This document shows, piece after piece, positions 3,607-23,470 of a DNA stretch of 64,000 nucleotides; the first letter of the stretch is position 1; each line of letters opens with the position of its first letter. The stretch lies in contig NC_089430.1 in NCBI RefSeq assembly GCF_026210795.1, positions 4,340,001 to 4,404,000 on the forward strand, given 5' to 3'. The notes under the pieces are model-generated. The model did not search any database, was not told the DNA's origin, and saw only the letters and a list, made by a program, of their open reading frames with translations. The stretch is from Rhizophagus irregularis (lineage: Eukaryota > Glomeromycota > Glomeromycetes > Glomerales > Glomeraceae). The translations under genes were made by a program, and so were the position numbers.

Positions 3607-6369
3607 TCAAATTAGATAAAAAAGAAAGAGGTAAAATTTACTTTGTTATTTTTGAACATTTATAGAATCTCATTTATAATGAAATATAATTTTCGTTCGA
3701 CTTTTTTAGATATTATAAGTAGTAAACGTAAATTTTTATTTTAAACGAGAGCTCACTAATTCTAAATCTCTATTTTGTTTTTTTATAAGTAAATAAATGC
3801 TTTTAAAACCCTGTATTGTATCCAAATTTTGTATTGTTACCTTTTTGTATATTGTTCGGGTAACGTAACTAATTAATATGCAAATTACAGAAATAAAATT
3901 ATTAATGAATAACATAGTAAAACTCTGAGAATATCATCTATAGTATATCTATAATCATCTTCGGGCCTTAATATTTTTACTACTTTTCATTACTTAAAAT
4001 TATTATTGCGGATTACAATTAATAATAACAAAAATTATTTTTGTTATTTTTCCTTTTTAGTTCAGTCACTGATTAAAATAATCAAAATAATCATAATAAA
4101 CTTATTTTTTAGTCAATTATAGAATTCATCAAATCCTATAATACCGCAATAAATAATATTTCCCTGTTAAAAAACAAATCAAATTAAAGAGATGATGCGA
4201 ATGAAATAATAAGTAATACTTTTTAGGATGCTATTTTGAACGAACGGCTTTTAGAATATACGACAATAATAATCATGCTATTTAAAAAATGGCCACTTCA
4301 TACAACTTATAATTATCTAATACTTTTAATTCAAAGTCTGTTAATAAATATATGTTTTATTAAAAAATTGATGTTAGAACGATTTAATGTGTAATATCAT
4401 AATAATATTTAATGGACATAATTTTATCACTTTTAGGAAGAATTAGAGAGAAGATGGCAATTGGGGAATATGGTTAACATTTTTATTTGTTAAATAAATG
4501 ATTTAATTGAAGATAATTTATTTTCGTTTGATTCATTTACCAAGTCATGAGAAAACAATGGATGCCCGATTAAATTCGTTACTTACTATATTTTATCGAC
4601 GTGCTAGTTAGGAACTCAGTTTATCTTTTTTTATTTTGTAATTTGTTTTATTGGCATAAATTGCTGCGTGTTTAAATTAATAAAATTGATGATTTGATGA
4701 TCAACCAAGCAGAATTAATACGTATAAGTCGTATAACATATAAACCAATCCAAGCTAAAAGAAAAAGATCAATATAAAAATGAACTTTTAGATTCTAGTA
4801 ACATTTAAAATCGAAAATGATACAACTTCAGTTGAAAAGTCAAGTTTCTTGTTTATAATAGTCACGTGATTATTATTATTATTTTTCGGAAAAAATTGTC
4901 TTTTAATCTTTTAATTAAAGTCTATTTAAAGATAACTTTTTATTCATGTATAAACAAAAGCATTCCACAACAAATAAACATCTGTTGGCTAAACTTTGCC
5001 ACGTCAGTGGTAAAATTTATAGCCGATCACCTATTACTTTATTAATCTATGTGACAATGTGACATGTGATATTGCCCACGTACTACTATAATATTTATAA
5101 TATTTGTAGCAAAGGACTATTTATTGTACGGAACTAGATAAATTTGTAGTACCGGTTTAACCCATTCATTTTTCCTTCCTTTCACCTACGTCACTATAAT
5201 TTAGCCCCTGCTTATTTCCTTTTATGTTTTGTAGTAACGCATTATTTTTAGCAACAAATTTTGTCACATTTTTGTACCATTTATATATATATACAGTATA
5301 TATAAATTATTGTTACTATTAAGCGTTTAAGCGACGGACTCTCCGTTTTCCTATTAAATAATAAATAATGTACAGTATATAGTTTATACATATACTGTAT
5401 CTGACGCTATATAGTATAAATAAATTTTATTAGAAAAAATTTAATTATTATTTTTTTTTAAATTTAATAATGTGACTGTAAACTCAGCTAATGACTTGGA
5501 ACATAGTTAAATAATATATATACATTTTTGTTATATATTGTCCAAATTTGTACAACAAAAAAAAAAATAGTATTTGAGATACTCATTTTTTTTCGTAGCA
5601 CACAATGCCACACATTTCTTTCGCATAATTTTTTTACTGATAAATTAATTTTCTTTACTATTTTTTCGGAGTACCTATATCAGTTTCAGATCAAATAGCT
5701 TATGAATCAATTGATTGACAAATATGACTCATAAGAATTTTCTATCTACTCAACCATTATTTTTTTTAATATAGCGTGACTATCAAAAAATGTTACAATC
5801 ATCCTCAACCTATTGAAACCATTAAATATTTACCATTACTTACCATGTTATTTTATCATTCTTCTCATATTCTCACAAACATAATTGTCCTAATTTTTAT
5901 TTCATTGAAATTCATAATTAATCAAGAGAAATTTAGCAAATTTTGCAGTAATATGTCAAAAAGGTTATTTGGTACAATTAAAAAAAATAATATTTTATTA
6001 GCTTTTTAATAAAAATGAATAATGAATTATTACAAATAGAGGATAAACGTTTTTAATTAATATATTTCACAAACTAGTATTGATTCTAGGAATATAGTAA
6101 AATTATTATAATTTAATTTACAATTTTTTTTTTTTAATAGTAAAAGTATAAATACTATAGCGAATAACTTTCGACAATTATTAAGGTGTTATTACGTCGT
6201 TCTAATGTACTGTTTGAAATTAATGACGAAAACACTTTCTCTAAATATTTCTATAATTTTTATTTGATTGGATAAGTAAATTTGAAAAGATAATCTTATT
6301 AAGATAGAGAACTGATTTACAGATAGATAATAGCATAAATAAAACTGATTTGTAAATTTCCATCCTCCA
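3607..6369. other. AT-rich intergenic stretch
   Basis: I see no supportable gene here. The sequence is low-complexity AT with scattered poly-A/T and alternating AT runs, for example around 5285-5310. A stretch near 5110-5180 resembles one at 44820-44880 (both begin with a GACTATTTA-TGTAC core), which suggests a dispersed repeat fragment. The short open frame at 5776-6009 starts without context and has no recognisable protein features. Confidence 0.5.
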
Positions 6370-7380: not shown

Positions 7381-8912
7381 TCATAATATTAAATCCTCGC
7401 ATTTTCTATTTACGGTAAAGACTTCAATTTCCTCAATGGTATAAACTGTCGCAGTTTTTAACTTATTTTCATAACTTTGGCTACTATTATTAGCATATAA
7501 ACCATTACCGCTCATAACCAATGAACCCCAACCAAAACTAAATGCATTTTCTTTATGAACCATTATGGCTTGAGTTTCTTTTACTACCCGACTTATTTTC
7601 ATATTTTGAGTATCATCGCCATCTTCAAATGAGAAAATAAAATTATTTGATGAATTGTAAAATCGATAACCATACTCAACAATATAACCACATCCTAATG
7701 AACTGAATCCGATAGAACTGTATCCACCAAAAATCTTATTTGTATTTTTAACTTTGATTAAGACTAAACTTTCTACTCGTCCATTACATCTTATTCTAAA
7801 TGATCTATTATTAATTCCGTCACGACTACCACGATAAATAATATTAAGCTTATAAAATGGGCCATTTCTATTATTAATATACATGGCATCTTTATTATTA
7901 ATCCAATTAATTATTATTTTTGCAAGTTTTTGGTTGATAATATTTGATTTGAATATTAAACCAATTCTAGGAGGTAACATTGTAGTTATTGGTAAGGCGT
8001 CTTTATGAAATTCTTCAATTTCTTCATAAATATTATCAGTAATAATATTTCTATAAGGACGGACTTTATCAAAAAAATCGGCGTGAGAAATTCCTGCAAA
8101 TCGAATGAGAGGAATAAATTGATTTAAAGTATTTTTCAACGCTTCGTAATCTTCATAATTCCAGTTCTCTCTATCACAATTCTCATTTCCAAGACCTGGA
8201 GTTTGTTCAATACCCCATTTAATTAAATAATCCCAAATGATAATTTCTTCAATCTGTAAGTCGTCTCTTTTAAGTACGCCAAGAAGTATTTGTTTATTTA
8301 TTGAGGGAAAAGATTTTGAAGAAAAAAATGGTAGTAGATCTTCACGGATAGATTCAAGACAATAATCTTGTAATCTTTTGCAATTATCGAGTCTAAACAC
8401 GGTATTAAGAACAAATATGAAATTTTCCCGTACCCAATTTGTTTGTTTTTCAATTAAATAATCTTGAACATGTTCAAATAATTCTTCAAGTAGTAGTTCA
8501 TCGGATGCAACTAGTAGATCAAGAATATTCTCACCCGATTGTTCAGTTAAATCAAGTTCACCAGTATAAATGTATCTAATAAAAAGTTATATATATAATT
8601 TCGAATAAATTAATAATTTGAAATTTTGTAAAAAAAAAAAAAATTAAATGATTCTCACCTCAAAACCATATCAAAAATAGTTGGTGTTAAATTCGGTTTA
8701 CTAAATATAATCATATTATCTTTTTTTGTAATCCAATTAGAGGAAAGGGCACTTTTAAAATAAAGTGAACGAGCACGTAAGATAACTGAATGTGCACGAA
8801 ATTCTTTTATATTTTGATTTTCACCAACTTGAATAATAACATTATAATCATCTGCATCATCTAATATTAAGGAAAGGTCTTTTGAAAGACCATGATGAAA
8901 AGTTAAAGCCAT
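7381..8912 (-). CDS. BTB-BACK-TLDc protein 1 (482 aa)
   Basis: Two exons (8659-8912 and 7381-8575) joined by an 83-nt intron in phase 2 give 482 aa. Residues 1-~110 are a BTB/POZ domain with DYNVIIQVGE, the conserved F-(R/K)AHSVIL segment and SNWITKKDN. Residues ~115-230 form a BACK-like helical region with IYTGELDL, LLVASDELLLEEL and VWDYLIKWG-type helices. The C-terminal ~180 residues are a TLDc domain with IYRGSRDG, KIFGGYSSIGF and FIFSFEDGDD. BTB domains usually dimerise or bind cullin-3, and TLDc domains are linked to oxidative-stress protection and V-ATPase binding; the role here is inferred from family only. I chose the ATG at 8912 because the paralogs begin MA(L/S)-F at the same place; the open frame upstream is poly-A-derived. 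The C-terminus is a few residues longer than in the paralogs. Confidence 0.85.
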
Positions 8913-10499
8913 ATATATTTTTTTTTTAAAAAAAAAAAAATTAAAAAAAAATTCTTCACACATTTAGGTTCAATTAAATATGGAAATCATTATGCTTAAA
9001 AATTTTGTAACATTACACCAAATTATTTCATATTTCTATATTAAGTTAGTTTATAATGAACCAAAGTAATGCGATGATCCGTTCTGTATTACGTAATTCT
9101 GGCCCTAGAACTAATAGTAAATGAGTGCCCTTGTTATATTGCCGCAACCGGTGTAACATAGTGATATATAGTGTCACCCATACCACCTCGGAAAGGAGTA
9201 ATGTCTAACCGTCACCGTTCACGTGACTTCCACGTTCGCCGAGGTTGGTTTGGTAAATGATCCCTTACACTTATCAATTGATAATCCGCATAACGTCAAG
9301 AATTGAAGTTCCTTTAATTTTTCTTACTGTTTGTATTTTTTTTAACAATCCATTATTTTTTCTTGCCATCAAGCATTTCTTTATTAAATATTATGCCAAA
9401 TAACATGGCAAATACTGTACAACAAATAGTACAAATACGTATATTTGCTTTTATCAATACTACATATATGATATATTATTTAAATGTGTATAATACATTG
9501 AGATATATTTTTTTTTGCACGAAAATGTGATAATTTATAGATAAAATTCGATATTTGTGTGGCGAGCATATTTTTTATATAACATTCTCTGAATTAATAA
9601 TATTTATTGATAATAGTACTATTAATGAAATGTATACTTTACTCTACGAATAAAAAAATATATAAGTACTAATTAAAAACAATATTAATAAAGTAGTTGA
9701 ATTTTTCTAAAACATTTTACACCCACAAAATTTAATCTAAATTATTCAAAATTAATTACATTTTAATAACATTTAGGATTAAACCAACTATTCATTTCAG
9801 AAATTAAACTTTTTTATTTCTAGTAAAAAGCATTGCCACTTACGTATTTTCATACAATTACTAATTCCCTAAAAGTATAGTGAAAAAAATGTTTCATTAT
9901 TTACAACGTCTCCTCCTTTTAAACAAAATAGTCGCCCTTAGAAATAGAATAAATATACAGTATGTGAATAGTATTAAAAAATAGAAAAACCAAAACTTGT
10001 ATTAAATTTTCATATAAGTCTTACGTCATAATTACAACTGTCCAGTCCCTGTGGCCAAGGCACCATGAAAGTATTTTAGGTTGAGTCTTCCCATAAAAGA
10101 TAGTTCTGTTATCCTGAGAGAAAAACATTTTTACAAAAATCTCTATATAGACTAAATAGAGAACATACTGTAGATGAAGAAAAATGTATTCACAGCAACA
10201 GACTGGATGTCACAATCAGAAAAGTTAGAATTTGAAAGTTTACCAAGGATACATCCTCAGATGCTGAAGTCGAATCCCAGCGACTGTAATATGATTTACT
10301 ACAAAGAGTGCAAACGCTTGAATTAAACCAAAAACAAGTAGGAGATGGAATTATTTATAAAGTGGATGTAGTATAACGAGATGATAAAAATGTTTTCAAC
10401 CTATTTTTACGTCCAAACGACTATACTACGTCAGAAGATAACATAATACTAAAGACAATCCAACATGTACAACAAGTTCAAAAACCTTTATACTCCTTC
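8913..10499. other. Intergenic stretch
   Basis: No supportable gene. A patch at about 9060-9260 is clearly less AT-rich than its surroundings and may be an old insertion, but I recognise no coding, RNA or terminal-repeat signature. The open stretch beginning near 10174 is short and then broken. Confidence 0.4.
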
Positions 10500-11230
10500 A
10501 TCTCCAAATAACGAAAGGAAAAACAACGTCAGAAAAACCAATGGTATCATGAAAAATAAGTGTCTTAGAAAACTTTACGAACGCAATTACAATGAAATTA
10601 TTAATTCAACCAGTGATATGGACAGTTTCCAATGATGCTTGGCCTCCATACAACGTAGGAGGTCTTTGCGTGATTCAAAGTGAACTATCAACATTTTTTT
10701 CACTTTATCTAACAAGGTTTTAAAAGATTTTTCTTCAATGTCATACTCAAATAATCTTGAAAGGATTGGGTTTCATGATAACTAAACATAATCGGATTGT
10801 TATCATAATCATCCAGAATGGGAAATTTTACTTGAAACCGTTCACATATCTTACAATCTTTTAAGTCTTAACTTCCAATGTTCAGGGAACCAACGGACAA
10901 ATGTATCACCAAAGTGACCCAACATTTGTCATAACAAAGTTCGAGCCAATGATAGGTTTTAATACCATCTTGGTCCAAACGAACTGATATTGTGTTGCGT
11001 TTTAAACGACGTTATTGTTCATAGTTAATTTGGTGATCTTGCCCTTTTTAGTTTGTATCTCCATTGGTATTACGGCCTTTGGATCTGGAGTACCAATGGG
11101 CTGTGAAGTAGATTGCAAATTTTGATTAACATGGGAATTGCCTTCCTGATTTGGTTGAACTATGGTAATATCCAGATCATCAATGCTATCTATATTCATA
11201 GATTTGTCTCCGTAGAAACATGCACTTTTG
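10500..11230 (-). pseudogene. Degenerate coding remnant, family unknown
   Basis: On the minus strand, higher-GC, protein-like fragments occur in several frames. Examples are a 65-codon open piece at 11002-11199 containing IPMEIQTKKGKITKL, a piece containing TYHWLELCYDKCW near 10940, and a longer open run with FKTLLDKVKKMLIVHFE near 10670-10730. They are separated by stops and frame changes. The pattern is that of a decayed transposon or captured gene. I do not recognise the family. Confidence 0.3.
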
Positions 11231-11850
11231 AATTATTATACTTCTTCTGCTGTTTCTTCAGCTGCGTCTTAGCAGCCTTTTGGATGAGAGAAGGTAAAGC
11301 GTTCTGGTACTGAGAGCTCGGACTATCCAGATGCTGATGAGCTTTACAGCGAGCTGATCAATATAATTGGTATATACCGCCGTGTTATATACCGGTATAT
11401 GCCCTGCGATATATATAACATGTTATCTACCCATGTGGCATTTCTTACGCCACGCAGCCGTCTTCAAAGGTCAAAAATTACTCAGACTTTTTCATATGCC
11501 CACCTCCTTACTTCATAACAAAATTTGCAAAGAGTACTATTGTACTGGTGCTTGATACTCTCAAAAGAGATGTGAAAGTGAAAAAAAAAGACAAGTAAAT
11601 ATTAGTTTCAACTCTTTTATAGCTAATGATCGACAAGTTAAGTTGTTATTTTTATAATTTAGTGATGCCATCAAACTTTTCGGACGCTCTACCGGTTCTT
11701 TCTGCCTAATTAAATCTGGCTGAAAATTGGTATCTGCATTTTGCATAGATAATATTACACAAATATCTATATAGTATATATACTCGAATAAAGGCGTTTA
11801 ATTGTATTTACCCTATTTTTTAGGAAGAATTCCAATAAAATTATTTAGTA
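11231..11850. other. Upstream region of the micro-exon kinase gene
   Basis: No supportable gene. A dyad-rich patch at about 11370-11425 contains TATATACCG and CGGTATAT repeats. Overlapping short ORFs on both strands have no protein-like features. The last 100 bases would contain the promoter of the gene starting at 11851 or 11956. Confidence 0.4.
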
Positions 11851-14800
11851 ATGGCTCAAAGTAACGATGAAGGTAAAAGCATATAATATGAATATAGATA
11901 TCTAATACAAATTGAAATTGCTCTAAAATTTTTTTCAAACCAAATTTGCAACATAATGAAACTAGTTTCAAAAATTGATAAGGATAAAGGTAAGAAAATT
12001 ATGTAACAATTTGTATATTTCTATTATTTTATATAATTAAATAATTTATTTTATTATTATAGTTGGTGAGTTAATAGCTATTTTTTTTTATTGAATTTTA
12101 CATGATATTTTAAATAACTAAATTTTCTATTAATATAATTGTTTAATAATTACGGTACTAATATCATAGAAAGTAAGTATTTAATTTTATATTAATTTAT
12201 AAGTATTTATAAATAATTTAAACTAATAATAATGTTTATTTAAATAATTAGATTGTAAGTTACTGTATATACTTAATTTTTATATACAATTATAATATTT
12301 TATCTAATTGATTATAATTACTTTACTTTATAATTATTATTAATTAATAATGCTACAGGGTGTAAGTTATTTATTTAATTCTATTATATTTACATAATAT
12401 TTACATATAATTTAAACTAACTAAATTCCTTATTTAAAAAATTATTCAAATATTTTAGACTGTAAGTAATTCTATTATATTTGTATAATACTTAAATATA
12501 ATTTAAACTAACTAAATTCTTTATTTAAAAATTATTTTGTAAATTCTTTTAGTTGGTAAGCTATAAGTTATTTATTTAATCCTATTATATTTATAACATT
12601 TACATATAATTTAAACTAACTAAATTCTTTATTAGATCGTAAGTAATTCTATTATATTTATATAATATTTACATATAATTTAAACTAACTAAATTCTTTA
12701 TTTAAAAAATTATTTTGTAATTTCTTTTAGTTGGTAAGCTATAAGTTATTTATTTAATCCTATTATATATATAATGTTTACATATAATTTAAACTAACTA
12801 AATTCTTTATTTAAAAAATTATTCAAATATTTTAGAATGTAAGTAATTCTATTATATTTATAATATTTACATATTAATTTAAACTAACTAAATTCTTTAT
12901 TTAAAAAATTATTTTGTAATTTCTTTTAGTTGGTAAGCTATAAGTTATTTATTTAATTATATTTATATAATATTTACATATTAATTTAAACTAACTAAAT
13001 TCTTTATTTAAAAATTATTTTGTAATTTCTCTTAGTTTGTGAGTTATAAGTTATTTATTTAATTCTATAATATTTATATAATATTTACATATAATTTAAA
13101 CTAACTAAATTCTTTATTGAAAAAATTATTCAAATATTTCAGATCGTAAGTAATTCTATTATATTTATATAAATTTACATATAATTTAAACTAACTAAAT
13201 TCTTTATTTAAAAAATTATTTATTAGGGTGTATGTTATTTATTTAATTATATTGTATTTACATAATATTTACATATAATTTAAACTAACTAAATTCTTTA
13301 TTTAAAAAATTATTCAAATATTTTAGATTGTAAGTAATTATATTATATTTATATAATATTTACATATAATATAATTTAAACTAACTAAATTCTTTATTTA
13401 AAAAATTATTCAAATATTTTAGATCGTAAGTAATTCTATTATATTTATATAATATTTACATATAATTTAAACTAACTAAATTCTTTATTTAAAAAATTAT
13501 TTATTAGGGTGTATGTTATTTATTTAATTATATTGTATTTAAATAATATTTATATATAATTTAAGCTAACTAAATTCTTTATTTAAAAAATTATTTTGTA
13601 ATTTCTTTTAGTTGGTAAGTTATAAGTTATTTATTTAATTCTATTATATTTATATATATTTACATATAATTTAAGCTAACTAAATTCTTTATTTAAAAAA
13701 TTGTTCAAATATTTTAGAACGTAAGTAATTCTATTGTATTTATATAATATTTACATATAATTTAAATTAACTAAATTCTTTATTTAAAAAATTATTCAAA
13801 TATTTTAGATTGTAAGTAATTCTATTATATTTATATAATATTTACATATAATTTAAGCTAACTAAATTCTTTATTTAAAAAATTATTTTGTAATTTTTTT
13901 TAGTTGGTAAGTTATAAGTTATTTATTTAATTCTATTATATTTATATAATATTTACATATAATTTAAACTAACTAAATTCTTTATTTAAAAAATTATTTA
14001 TTTAATAATATAGGGAGTATGTTATTTATTTAGTAATTCTATTATATTTATATAATATTTACATATAATTTAAACTAACTAAATTATTTAAAAAATCATT
14101 TAAAATATTTTAGCCTGTAAGTATTGCATTTTTTTAATTATAAAAATCTTATATTTTTATATTTAATTTATTATAATTATATAATATTTTACTCATAATA
14201 ATTAAATTTTTTTAAAAAATTTTGATAATTTATTTAGTTGGTAAGCTATAAGTTATATACTACTTATTTAAAATTTAAATCAATTAAATTAATTAATTAT
14301 TTATTATATTAAAATCTTACAATTTTATTTAGAGTAAGTATAATTAATATTATTTAATATTTAAATTTTTAATTGTAAATTTTATTTTAAATTTTAATTT
14401 TTCATTTTTGTATTTAAAGACTTGGTACTAGTGGAAGTGAAGTTGTGAATCAATTTATTCATAAAAATAAATTAAAATGGTTTCCTTATGATAGATTTGA
14501 AAATATTGAATATCTTGATAAAGGAGGATTTGGTACTATATATAAAGCTAAATATAATAGTATTGAAGTAATTTTTAAATATTTTGATCATCTTAATCAT
14601 TCAGATGAAAGTTTAAATGAATTTTTAAATGAAGTATGATTAAACATTATTATTTTTTTTTGATATTATAATTTATTTATATTAATTAATTAAATATTAT
14701 TTTTTTTATAGTGGAAAATTATTAATTCACATGGAATTATTAAAATATATGGATTCACAAAAGATCCAGATACATTGAATTATGTATTAGTGATGGAGTA

Positions 14801-16965
14801 TACAAATAAGTATAGTTTAAAAAGATGTTTAACAGAAATAACAAAAAATTGGAAACAAAAATTATTATATTTATATCAAATTATTAGAGGTCTTAATGAT
14901 ATTCATGAAAAAGATCTAATTCATTATAACTTTCATAATGGTAATATTTTATGTAACAAATATAAAGAAGAACTATATGGAATTTTTATTAGTGATTATT
15001 TAGGATTATATCAACTTGCAAAATCTTTTTTAAAAGAAAATGATATCTATGGAGTTTTACCATTTATAGCACCTGAAATTTTAAAAGGTCAACCCTATAC
15101 TCAAGCTAGTAATATATATAGTTTTTCTATAATTATGTGGGAATTTACATCTAAAATTCTACCATTTAATGATAAAGCACATGATCTTCAGCTTGCTTTA
15201 AGTATTTGTAAAGGTGAACGTCCTGAAATTATTGAAAATACTCCACAATGTTATATAGATTTAATGAAAAAATGCTGGGATGAAGATCCATTAAAAAGGC
15301 CATCTTCTAAAGAAGTTTTAAATATTATTGAAAATTGGATTTTTCTTTCACAGAATAAGGAGATTGAAGATATTAGTGAAGAATTAAAAAGCGATATTAT
15401 GGAATTTATAAATGCACCAATTGAGCATAATAAACTTATTGTAAAATCTCATCCAAAAGCATGCTATACAAGTCATTTACTTGATCTTACCAGTGAAGAA
15501 TTAAATGAAATTCTAGAAGATTCTCAAGGATTTCTTAAATCTTTGAAACAAAAATATCAAAGTTCTCAAAATGAGTTTGATTATCACTCTACAAAACCGA
15601 AAATAAAATGGATTTCATATTCACAAATTAAAAGTTTAAAAAAAATAGCAGAAGGAGGGTTTGGTATTATTTATAAAGCTTTAATTAATGGAGACGTTGT
15701 TGCTATAAAAAAAGTTTTAAATTCTCAAGAACCAAATAAATATTTTTTAAATGAGGTAATTAATTTTCAAAATTTTTTTTTTAAAGATATTTAATATACT
15801 AATTTGAACTATAAAATTTTAGTTAAAATCACTTTATCAATGTTATGATAGTAAATTTGAATATATTATTAAATGTCATGGTATCACAAAAGATCCTATA
15901 ACAAAAGAATATATGTTTATAATGAAATATGCAAATGGAGGAGATTTACATAATTATTTACAAGAGAATTTTGCAGAGATTACATGGAAGAAAAAATTGC
16001 ACATTTTGTGGCGAATTTCAGATGGGTATCTATAACTTAACGTTAATTAATAATGATTTTAAAATTATTTAAACAAAATTTTATTAATAACCAATTTTTT
16101 ATTTTAGACTTCAAACTATTCATAAAAAAAATTTCGTACATCGAGATTTTCATAGTGGAAATATATTGGTTGAAATAATTGAAAATGATTCATGTAAAAT
16201 AGATCAATATCTAATTGGAGATTTAGGATTATCACAGCCCGCAAATGACATACATGATAGCAGTATATATGGAGTAATACCTTATATTGCACCAGAAATA
16301 TTTAAAGGCGGCAAATTTTCCAAATCATCTGATATTTATTGTATGGGCATGATTATGTGGGAATTAACATCTGGTCGTAAACCTTTTGCTAATGTTGAAC
16401 ATGATGTTGATTTAATTTATAAAATTATTGATGGAAAACGGCCTAATATTACTGACGATACTCCCGAAGATTTTGCTAATTTAATGAAAAAATGTTGGAA
16501 TCCTGATCCTAAAAAAAGACCTTCAGCAACGCATGTTTGTGAAATTTTTAATTCTTGGTCAAATATGGAAATGGTTGCCGAATATTTTAATCAAGCTGAA
16601 GAAATAAGATTAGAATTAATAAAATCAAAAATGATTGGACCAGATTTCAATGAGAAATCTCATTCAAAAGCAATTTATACTAGTAGATCATTAAGCTCTT
16701 TAACTGGTTCACCTTCAATTATAACGTTTAATACGAAACCAAGTATGTAAACATTATTTTTTATATAAATTTGGACAATATTTACAACATTTTAACATTT
16801 AATAAATATTATCATCTTAGATAATAAACTTATTGAAGAATCAATCAACAATAAAGGTATTAAGTTATCTTTTAATCAGTACGTAAAGGAATTTATTAAT
16901 TACTTGATTTTTTTTCTTTAGAATATATTACAAAAGAATACGAGCATGATATAAATAAAATTTAA
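11851..16965 (+). CDS. Micro-exon gene encoding a pseudokinase-kinase tandem
   Basis: Proposed exons are 11851-11872, 11966-11989, then 24 micro-exons (12063-14333), then 14420-14633, 14712-15755, 15823-16025, 16108-16742, 16821-16856 and 16922-16965. An alternative start is the ATG at 11956, in the same frame as 11966-11989. Domain 1 (14420-~15300) has KGGFGTIYKA and a lysine in VIFK. Its catalytic loop reads HYNFHNGN instead of HRD-FHxGN, and DFG reads DYLG with one extra residue, so it is probably a pseudokinase. Domain 2 (~15600-16550) has EGGFGIIYKA, VAIKKV, HRDFHSGN, DLG and APEIFKG and looks active. Each domain is followed by an H(S/P)KAxYTS motif. The 16742 donor (GTATGT) overlaps an in-frame TAA at 16748-16750; if it is not used, the protein ends there. 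Kinase parts are firm; micro-exon usage is inferred from splice motifs and frame closure. Confidence 0.7.
11990..14419 (+). repeat. Tandem array of 25 introns separated by 3-nt exons
   Basis: The array has 25 intron-like units of 73-121 nt. Each begins GTAAG, GTGAG or GTATG and ends (T)TAG or CAG (AAG in the last unit), and most carry a CTAAC branch-like box before an AT-rich tract. They are separated by exactly 3 nt, starting at 12063, 12170, 12252, 12359, 12459, 12553, 12636, 12731, 12836, 12930, 13036, 13143, 13227, 13327, 13423, 13508, 13612, 13718, 13809, 13904, 14014, 14114 and 14238, plus a single A at 14333. The triplets are TTG (7), ATT (3), ATC (3), GGT (3) and one each of AAA, ACT, AAT, TTT, AAC, GGA and CCT. 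Entered in phase 1 from 11989, the chain has no stop and leaves in phase 2 only because of the 1-nt exon, matching the frame of exon 14420. Confidence 0.75.
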
Positions 16966-21973: not shown

Positions 21974-23470
21974 TTATCTATCTTCAATAAAGGTTTCAAT
22001 TTCCTTAATAGTATAAGTTGCCGCCTCAATATTTAAATTATTTTCATAATTTTGGCAAGCATTATAATTAACAAATAATTTTTCATTGTCCATGACCAAT
22101 GAACCTTGACCAAAATTAAATCCACTATAACAATCTAATATGGCACGAGATTTATTTACTACCCGACTTATTTTCATATTTTGAGTATCTTCACTATCTT
22201 CAAACGAGAAAATAAAATTATCTGATGAATCATAAAATTTAAGACTATGAACATTATTAAAATTATATCCTAATGAACTAAATCCGATAGAACTGTATCC
22301 ACCAAAAATTTTACTTGTATTTTCAACTTTAACCAAAACTAAACTTGCTACTCGACCATTACATTTATTTCTAAATGAATAATCACTAATTCCGTCACGA
22401 ATACTACGATAAATAGGTTTAAACCTATATAATAGATCATTACCAGTACGAGGATTTTTAGAATTTTTTTTAACAATCCAATTTTCTATAATTGGATTTA
22501 CAAGTTCTAAGTTAATAATATTTGATTTAATTTTTCTTATTCTAATTGGTAAAGATGGTGAAATACTATTATAATAAAATTCTTCAATTTCTTTAAAAAT
22601 GTGACTAGGGATAATGGCCTTATATGGATAGACTTTATTAAATAAGTCTTTATGAGAAATTCCCACAAATCGAATAAGAGGAATAAATTGATTTAAAATT
22701 TGTTTCAATGAATCATAATTATCATTATCCCAATTTGTTCTATCACTATTACTACTACTTCCTAAACCAGCAGAAGTTTGTTCAATACCCCATTTAATTA
22801 AATAATCCCAAACTTTAACTTCTTCAATTTGTAAGTTATCACTTTCAAGCAAATTAAAAAGAGAGTCTTTATCCAATGAAAGAAAAGATTTTGAAGTAAT
22901 AAATGGCAAAGGATCTTCACAGATAGATTCAAAACAATAGTCTTGCAAGTTCTTACAACTGACAAGTCTAAAAACTGTATTAAGAACGAGAACAAAATTT
23001 TGACGAACCCATATGTTTTGTTTCTTAATTAAATAATCTTGAACATGTTCAAATAACTCTTCAAGTAGTAATTCATCAGATGCAACTAATAGACCAAGAA
23101 TATTTTCACCCGATTGTTTAGTTAAATCAAGTTCACCAGTGTAAATATATCTAATAATATTTATTCCGGATAAGTTTAGAATTTAAAAAATTGTAAAAAA
23201 ATTAAATGATTCTCACCTCAAAATCATATCAAAAATAGTTGGTGTTAAATTCGGTTTACTAAATATAATCATATTATCTTTCTTTGTAACCCAATTAGAA
23301 GAAAGAGCTCCTTTGAAATAAGAAGAACGAGCACGTAAAATAACTGAATGTGCACGAAATTCTTTCATATTTTGATTTTCACCAACTTGTATAATAACAT
23401 TGTAATCATCTGCATCATCTAATATTAAGGAGAAGTCTTTTGAAAGACCAAGATGAAAAATTGAAGCCAT
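21974..23470 (-). CDS. BTB-BACK-TLDc protein 2 (476 aa)
   Basis: Two exons (23217-23470 and 21974-23150) with a 66-nt phase-2 intron give 476 aa. The order is BTB (residues 1-~110: DYNVIIQVGENQNMKEF, AHSVIL, SNWVTKKDN), BACK-like helices (VRQNFVLVLNTVFRL, IEEVKVWDYLIKWGIEQT) and TLDc (IYRSIRDGI, RVASLVLVKVENTSKIF, GGYSSIGF, FIFSFEDSED). It groups with the plus-strand gene at 31036 by the SSSNSD and NDNYDSLKQILNQFIPLIRF segments and the ISPSLP(I/L)RIR linker. Exon 1 is exactly 254 nt, as in all four paralogs. Its exact cellular role is unknown. Confidence 0.87.

Follow-up and report, generated by a model that had tools for sequence, protein, structure and literature searches.

Long series of very small exons are known from the micro-exon genes (MEGs) of Schistosoma, whose exons measure 6-81 bp (3-81 bp in the abstract), mostly 15 bp; according to the same account (PMC10526429), each gene holds 10-20 of them, the introns span about 0.1-5 kb, the products are secreted and the central exons are alternatively spliced. 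For the fungus Rhizophagus irregularis, another account (PMC4219462, citing Tisserant 2013) reports an expansion of tyrosine-kinase-like (TKL) genes. Here, we describe a stretch of 64,000 nucleotides of the R. irregularis genome (assembly GCF_026210795.1, contig NC_089430.1, positions 4,340,001 to 4,404,000 of the forward strand; called the window throughout, with positions counted from its first letter), in which a ladder of 25 short introns, with 23 exons of 3 nt and a single 1-nt exon between them, leads into a protein kinase gene. Judged from the sequence, the ladder is very probably protein-coding, all 3-nt exons and the terminal 1-nt exon being joined into a variable peptide in front of the kinase. 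Set beside the MEGs, a series of small frame-preserving exons is present (23 in the window and 1001 in 31 loci of the same genome, as gene models), whereas the MEG dimensions are not (exons of 3 nt instead of 6-81 bp, and a median intron of 94 nt instead of 0.1-5 kb).

A preliminary description of this DNA had proposed a ladder of 25 intron-like units of 73-121 nt, spaced by 3 nt in 23 cases and by 1 nt in one, and a stop-free frame running from the preceding exon through the triplets into the kinase exon at 14420. A junction scan of 11841-14440 with the pattern YAG-(n)-GTRNG, n ranging from 0 to 40, recovered this arrangement: 23 junctions with n=3, a single one with n=1 (the exon at 14333) and no other length apart from n=24, produced by the ordinary exon 11966-11989. 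The ladder occupies 11990-14419 on the plus strand, its first intron lying at 11990-12062 (73 nt), its last at 14334-14419 (86 nt) and its longest at 14117-14237 (121 nt), and thus the unit lengths agree as well. The 3-nt exons start at 12063 (TTG, 12063-12065), 12170, 12252, 12359, 12459, 12553, 12636, 12731, 12836, 12930, 13036, 13143, 13227, 13327, 13423, 13508, 13612, 13718, 13809, 13904, 14014, 14114 and 14238. Tandem Repeats Finder reported periods of 91, 178, 386 and 482 bp among others, which correspond to about one unit and its multiples. The same scan found no n=3 junction on the antisense strand of 11001-15600, and in the remaining 61.4 kb of the window such junctions (three on the plus and two on the minus strand) were level with other lengths.

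The proposed frame is indeed open on translation. Exon 1 (11851-11872, plus strand; 22 nt, read directly) starts with ATG and encodes MAQSNDE plus 1 nt; exon 2 (11966-11989; 24 nt, delimited by the 24-nt YAG-GT junction) completes V, adds SKIDKDK plus 1 nt and ends in phase 1. Joined to the 23 triplets, the 1-nt exon and the kinase exon, they give the product MAQSNDEVSKIDKDKV-ENWYFDLEFVYRYYRFEHFGTF-E-LGTSGSEVVNQ...

Recurrence of ladders in the genome

The genome searched comprises 146,748,485 bases in 32 contigs (in the following, L0xx denotes loci taken for study, and C1, C4 and the like denote contigs). A two-junction ladder pattern matched 901 + 986 times and the reversed pattern not at all. 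The 100 places listed among these matches form 11 clusters, and for all 11 a match to the first kinase exon lies downstream on the same strand, at up to about 8 kb (compared by eye). This exon has at least 150 matches in the genome, and four of the 150 listed carry an internal stop. A sample independent of the ladder pattern was drawn from them, namely 20 kinase exons from ranks 1-150 on other contigs with about 5.5 kb of upstream sequence; ladders preceded all 20, with 9 to 51 triplets in the stretch examined, the weakest being L025 with nine triplets and no 1-nt exon seen. In a third sample of eight places found with another pattern, a kinase exon was listed for seven, of which one belongs to a cluster included above. 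The remaining place, L039 (C4:3410800-3417800), holds a nine-triplet ladder, and no kinase exon was found by a simple pattern within 7 kb; we take it to be a truncated or interrupted copy.

The 31 loci compared below are not a random sample and include ten of the 11 listed clusters and the 20 chosen kinase exons. They contain 1001 junctions of 3 nt, 75 of which were detected in the longest ladder (L018 and L040). The next most frequent lengths were 1 nt (11 + 20 = 31; 29 of these stand at the end of a ladder) and 6 nt (4 + 12 = 16), and antisense n=3 junctions, 0 and 3 in two locus samples, were not in excess. The 6-nt junctions in or near ladders (seven in L037, three in L016 and one each in L015, L025, L032, L033, L034 and L035) include GGAGTT and AGAGTA, and a weaker donor may be concealed in the ones with an internal GTA or GTT. 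Between consecutive branch-like boxes 60-140 nt apart (n=293), 264 intervals hold a 3-nt junction, 14 a 1-nt junction, two only a 6-nt junction and 13 none. Introns shorter than 150 nt (n=892) have a median length of 94 nt, and their lengths leave remainders of 0, 1 and 2 upon division by three in 270, 341 and 281 cases, so only the exons keep the frame.

Across the whole genome the spacing was assessed with one single-junction pattern in which only n was changed, against a reversed control. At n=3 there were 2739 matches versus 110 in the control; n=4 to 30 pooled gave 1661 versus 3243, and n=0 to 2 gave 179 versus 599, so that among spacings of 0-30 nt only 3 nt is in excess. The deficit at n=0 to 2 led us to reject recursive splice sites of zero nt, and the window scan, the level in the rest of the window and the reversed control together rule out a chance spacing of 3-nt junctions. 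Because the strict n=3 pattern recovers only 421 sites against 1001 junctions in the 31 loci, the genome-wide count suggests about 6,000 three-nt exons, a very rough extrapolation from non-random loci.

A second type of short-exon series was encountered elsewhere in the genome, in which the introns end in CTAACGTTTCTTT...TTTGTAG-like sequence and the exons measure about 20-30 nt (C1:2680667-2681381, minus; C1:5107238-5108035, plus; C1:1450216-1451289, minus; C1:432795-432949, plus), and is possibly another microexon-rich gene family.

Reading frame and inclusion of the triplets

A kinase start was recognised in 22 of the 31 loci (not in L011, L012, L018, L022, L025, L027, L034, L035 and L036), and in all 22 offset 1 alone leaves the kinase exon open, so two bases are needed from upstream. 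One is the 1-nt exon, the other the final base of the last triplet. The 1-nt exon closes the ladder in 30 of 31 loci, as A in 29 and as C in L018/L040, with none seen in L025; in the window the A at 14333 (plus strand, located by the junction scan) sets the frame, the preceding G, this A and the following A forming GAA (Glu). It follows that ladder residues straddle adjacent triplets, each being encoded by the third base of one triplet and the first two bases of the next. Within contiguous runs, to which the stop test was limited (976 of the 1001 triplets), none of 866 adjacent-triplet codons is a stop, compared with 37.4 ± 4.7 when the order of the triplets is shuffled (minimum 22 in 5000 shuffles). 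Counting distinct adjacent pairs once, none of 394 forms a stop versus a shuffle mean of 27 (minimum 16 in 2000 shuffles). The other straddling frame contains 68 and 81 stops in two samples. When triplets were swapped between close cassette pairs (defined below), stops arose in 27 of 220 contexts, and swaps with a random pool gave 9.9%; the context of a triplet matters, and we conclude nothing further from this test.

These data bear directly on a non-coding ladder, one that is spliced out as a single 2.4-kb intron, removed recursively or located upstream of the true start. The arrays are repetitive, some seem interrupted (L011, L039) and exons of 3 nt are hard for the spliceosome, all of which would fit such a tract. 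Yet joining 11989 straight to 14420 in the window is out of frame and runs into stops, the 1-nt exon is conserved and required for the frame, and the 3-nt spacing is held exactly while intron lengths vary freely; moreover, it is hard to see why stops should be lacking in an order-dependent way unless the triplets are joined and translated. We consider a non-coding ladder extremely unlikely, and a pseudogene is likewise disfavoured by the frame-dependent stop avoidance and the frame-setting 1-nt exon.

The preliminary description had also envisaged that skipping of triplets in many patterns could yield a large repertoire of peptides from one locus. Any skip of internal 3-nt exons keeps the frame, and about 95% of single skips create no stop (34 stops in 756 codons formed across one skipped exon). 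Stop avoidance is, however, confined to adjacent triplets: with two to seven exons skipped, 4.8-5.6% of the codons are stops, the overall range for lags 2-8 is 4.5-5.6%, and shuffling gives about the same rate (4.3%, 37.4/866); distinct skip pairs contain 24 stops in 381. Since skip codons hold stops at the chance rate, selection is visible only on the product that includes all exons. Combinatorial splicing thus seems to us quite improbable and the skipping repertoire was dropped, whereas the other half of that proposal, a tandem series of single-codon exons read into the kinase, gains from the stop-free adjacent codons, the 1-nt exon and the excess of spacing 3. The complete triplet series appears to be what selection has kept, and skips, being mostly in frame and free of stops, may help to tolerate splicing errors.

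Given a coding ladder, the pre-mRNA would carry many short introns in a row, every one equipped with a donor, a branch-like box and an acceptor, and these introns would be removed singly by intron definition and probably in order, because splicing factors could hardly occupy both sides of a 3-nt exon together. The mature message would encode a short N-terminus, then a peptide whose length ranges from about ten to more than seventy residues, then a TKL-like kinase, and with every exon in phase 1 each residue would be coded at the junction of two cassettes, a cassette being the 3' half of one intron, the triplet and the 5' half of the next intron.

Automatic models from the ATG to the kinase could be attempted where the exon 1 and exon 2 patterns worked, in 11 of the 31 loci (the window counted among them). 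Exon 1 is 22 nt long in 8 of the 11, the 24-nt junction recurs in L012, L015, L020, L021, L023 and L024, and the summed length of exons 1 and 2 leaves a remainder of 1 in 10 of the 11 and of 2 in L010, perhaps owing to a wrong acceptor. Exon 2 is longer in L017 (123 nt), L018 (105 nt) and also L014, and in all three EFEGS-like repeats make it a second repeat-bearing part of the gene.

Divergence of triplets and growth of the arrays

The cassette would also be the evolutionary unit of the ladder. We paired each cassette with its nearest relative by the outer flanks (-40..-15 and +17..+50) and compared the triplets with the held-out nearer flanks. In pairs of at least 97% identity (n=139), the three triplet bases differ in 20, 19 and 40% of cases and the held-out flanks in 3.3 and 2.4%; at 80% the values are 35, 27 and 49% versus 8.2 and 8.2%. 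When the held-out block was rotated at 95%, nine blocks differed by 2-6% and the two outermost by 10-13%, the latter excess arising from small indels that shift the ungapped comparison. Among 71 disjoint pairs the triplet is changed in 35% at a flank difference of 1.1%, and of 41 groups whose 72-nt flanks are identical, 7 contain more than one triplet, including replacements of all three bases. Pairs with a single triplet change carry it at the third base, which is codon position 1, in 59 of 83 cases, and the residue is changed in 68 of 83. We prefer to read the excess of triplet change, as far as the sequences allow, as diversifying selection.

A mutational process aimed at the exon triplet, and especially at its donor-adjacent last base, could produce a similar pattern without selection on residues. 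It would account for the prevalence of third-base changes and for whole-codon replacements beside flanks with 0/72 changes (AGA versus TTC, and CTC versus AGA in L030). The ladder ends speak against it. In 25 loci the last triplet stands no more than 130 nt from the 1-nt exon; it reads TTG in 22 of these (in the window at 14238-14240, plus strand) and has G as its third base in 24. The 1-nt exon itself is A in 29 of 30 loci. At the start, 20 of 31 loci show ATT followed by GGT among their first eight triplets, CTC comes first in 15, and the exact series CTC TTG AAA ATT GGT is found in four. The window shows this recurrent start as TTG AAA ATT GGT, read E-N-W-Y (12063-12361, plus strand; from the comparison of the 31 loci). 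The donor-adjacent position is therefore not variable everywhere. In addition, the substitution spectrum is mixed in the 71 disjoint pairs, and 15 paired triplets in the recent duplication of L018/L040 are unchanged, so change is not instant. None of these points separates mutation from later selection; targeted mutation is in our view unlikely, and diversifying selection is retained as the preferred reading.

Close cassette pairs fall within the same ladder in 74 of 139 cases. In L018/L040 (L018 4700-6700), about 2 kb match themselves almost perfectly at a shift of 1683-1684 bases, which represents either a near-perfect tandem duplication of about 1.7 kb in one ladder or an assembly error; in this block 15 triplets recur unchanged and in the same order, and the pair at its upstream edge differs (GGA, AAA). 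Provided that the assembly is right at this locus, the duplication shows directly that changes in the arrays come in blocks of whole codons. The same observations count against mobile introns of the introner type, inserted repeatedly, with the 3 nt as a target-site duplication or a leftover. Thousands of similar short introns in one genome and a few single matches away from ladders (e.g. C1:1937404) would be expected under such insertion. However, among the matches listed the ladders lie upstream of one kinase family, in every cluster and in seven of the eight further places, and the closest copies within one ladder together with the block duplication point to tandem exchange. Introner insertion is thus very unlikely as the source of the arrays, and an ancient introner origin of the first unit is possible.

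Taking the ladder as coding and its triplets as selected, the repetitive introns would supply homology for unequal exchange, by which arrays could gain and lose whole codons without leaving the frame. Mid-array residues would diversify fast, most likely under selection, while the ladder end stays nearly fixed and its start recurrent. The diversity that the arrays do carry lies in germline differences between cassettes and genes rather than in skipping. The variable peptide would most likely form a recognition or regulatory surface for its kinase. Taken further, the family (at least 150 exon matches, 31 ladders examined) could be a device for diversification in the germline, with a hypervariable recognition segment built from single-codon exons, each in its own intron cassette. 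Selection, and perhaps also mutation directed at the triplet, would diversify no more than 3 nt in about 97, and the kinases and pseudokinases of this arbuscular mycorrhizal fungus could read self/nonself or partner signals; we put this forward tentatively, as a possibility that we doubt more than we believe.

Several observations weigh against the ladder being a coding and selectively diversified series. The triplets are related by duplication and the shuffles therefore overstate significance, an objection that the test on distinct pairs answers in part. Plain concatenation over detection gaps yields three in-frame stops (L013, L025, L037); all three lie outside contiguous runs, so some junctions must be missed or irregular. 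Triplets taken alone are also seldom stops (0 of 389, where position-wise shuffles predict 11.5, and 3 of 612 in a second sample), a depletion which the proposed frame does not predict and which a small set of common triplets may explain. Only 4 of the 11 automatic models are complete and free of stops (L015, L017, L021, L024); the kinase-start pattern was unmatched in the window, L011, L012 and L018, and stops occurred in L010, L011, L013 and L020, failures that are due at least in part to missed junctions or kinase starts. L011, L025 and L039 look damaged. In L011, around 4400-5000, a kinase-exon-like start after the 1-nt exon stops short and the match resumes about 0.4 kb further on, a possible insertion, and this copy may be inactive. 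As to divergence, the ratio of triplets to flanks falls from about 11 to about 4.5 at looser pairing, block-by-block ratios at 90% are only 1.7-7.7, and among single changes the other two triplet bases change about as often as the flanks, a pattern that does not follow simply from selection on residues; gene conversion that homogenises the introns on each side separately could mimic the excess. Finally, 25 to over 70 tiny introns per transcript demand very high splicing fidelity, and the recognition role is one that we purely infer.

The kinase gene, its peptide and known systems

The first kinase exon (14420-14633, plus strand; direct read and genome matches) encodes LGTSGSEVVNQ...GGFGTIYKA... 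with a glycine-rich loop. The rest of domain 1 and the start of domain 2 follow at 14712-15794 (plus; Pfam PF00069, 6.3e-31), with HYNFHNGN in place of HRD, and SDYLG; domain 2 continues at 16091-16750 (plus; Pfam PF07714, 5.3e-27), with HRDFHSGN ... GDLG and its catalytic residues present. The window gene thus contains protein kinase domains by both Pfam models, and the nearest solved relatives of the ladder-adjacent domain (CTR1, RIPK4, TAK1) make it TKL-like. In this domain the HRD aspartate is lost (HYN/HYS/HHN) in six of ten loci (the window, L009, L011, L012, L013, L015), and HCD is kept in L010, L014, L016 and L017. From these residues, domain 1 of the window is a probable pseudokinase, in tandem with a second domain that has HRD and DLG. 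The product starts MAQSNDEVSK and continues into the kinase domains with no evident signal peptide (judged by eye).

The richness in Phe, Tyr, Trp and His noted in the preliminary description holds for the window, where these make up 11 of the 22 residues inside the ladder (counted by eye). Over the 31 loci they reach 29%, near the roughly 26% expected from the shuffled triplet pool, so most of this richness follows from triplet composition. The leading residues are R, F, D, L, Y, W and N; relative to shuffled order W (66 versus 39) and E (45 versus 27) are most over-represented, and V, G and H are under-represented. The hydrophobic autocorrelation of the peptide stays close to zero over lags 1-8 (-0.105 at lag 7 being the largest value), with no clear helix or strand periodicity. 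Elsewhere in the window, a minus-strand gene at 7381-8963 has BACK and TLDc domains (Pfam), and another at 21974-23182, also minus, resembles it by translation.

Standard annotation and RNA-seq aligners probably miss such ladders, and the predicted N-termini of many kinases in this model mycorrhizal fungus may therefore be wrong. The ladder kinases probably belong to the TKL expansion mentioned above, and the accessible parts of that account (PMC4219462) leave the exon ladder unmentioned.

With the Schistosoma MEGs the ladders, as gene models, share many consecutive and mostly frame-preserving tiny exons, difficult annotation and variable proteins; they differ in having 3-nt exons, up to 75 per gene, introns of about 94 nt, a kinase gene and skipping without visible selection. 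Drosophila homothorax shares a 3-nt exon, but a single alternative one in one gene and no ladder (PMC7392893). The 1-nt exon of plant APC11 and VPS55 is likewise needed for the downstream frame (PMC4674806, PMC8831610), yet those are isolated cases, whereas the Rhizophagus 1-nt exon closes a ladder in 30 of the 31 loci compared. Fungal NLR genes such as Podospora het-d/het-e share tandem units, exchange, hypervariable residues and intracellular signalling (PMC12222747). In the ladders, unlike in het-d/het-e, the repeat is the intron, with one codon per copy. The Podospora repeat is itself coding and consists of WD40 units. Introners and tandem intron duplication also create large numbers of similar introns; unlike these, the Rhizophagus introns, among the places listed, stand in ladders of one gene family, with a fixed 3-nt spacing and a coding frame. 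A literature search, which did not extend to preprints and most subscription papers, returned no description of an array of single-codon exons. MEGs, lone 3-nt microexons and plant 1-nt exons thus each share one feature of the ladder, and in the accessible sources none is a single-codon ladder that combines fixed spacing with selection for full inclusion and with diversification codon by codon. Microexons described so far stand alone or, as in MEGs, mostly span several codons; if our reading is true, dozens of consecutive one-codon exons must be spliced faithfully across a whole gene family, which would be an extreme natural test of the spliceosome on exons too short for two-sided binding and suggests an unrecognised route to a hypervariable peptide, in which the homology for exchange lies in the introns and each unit carries one free codon.

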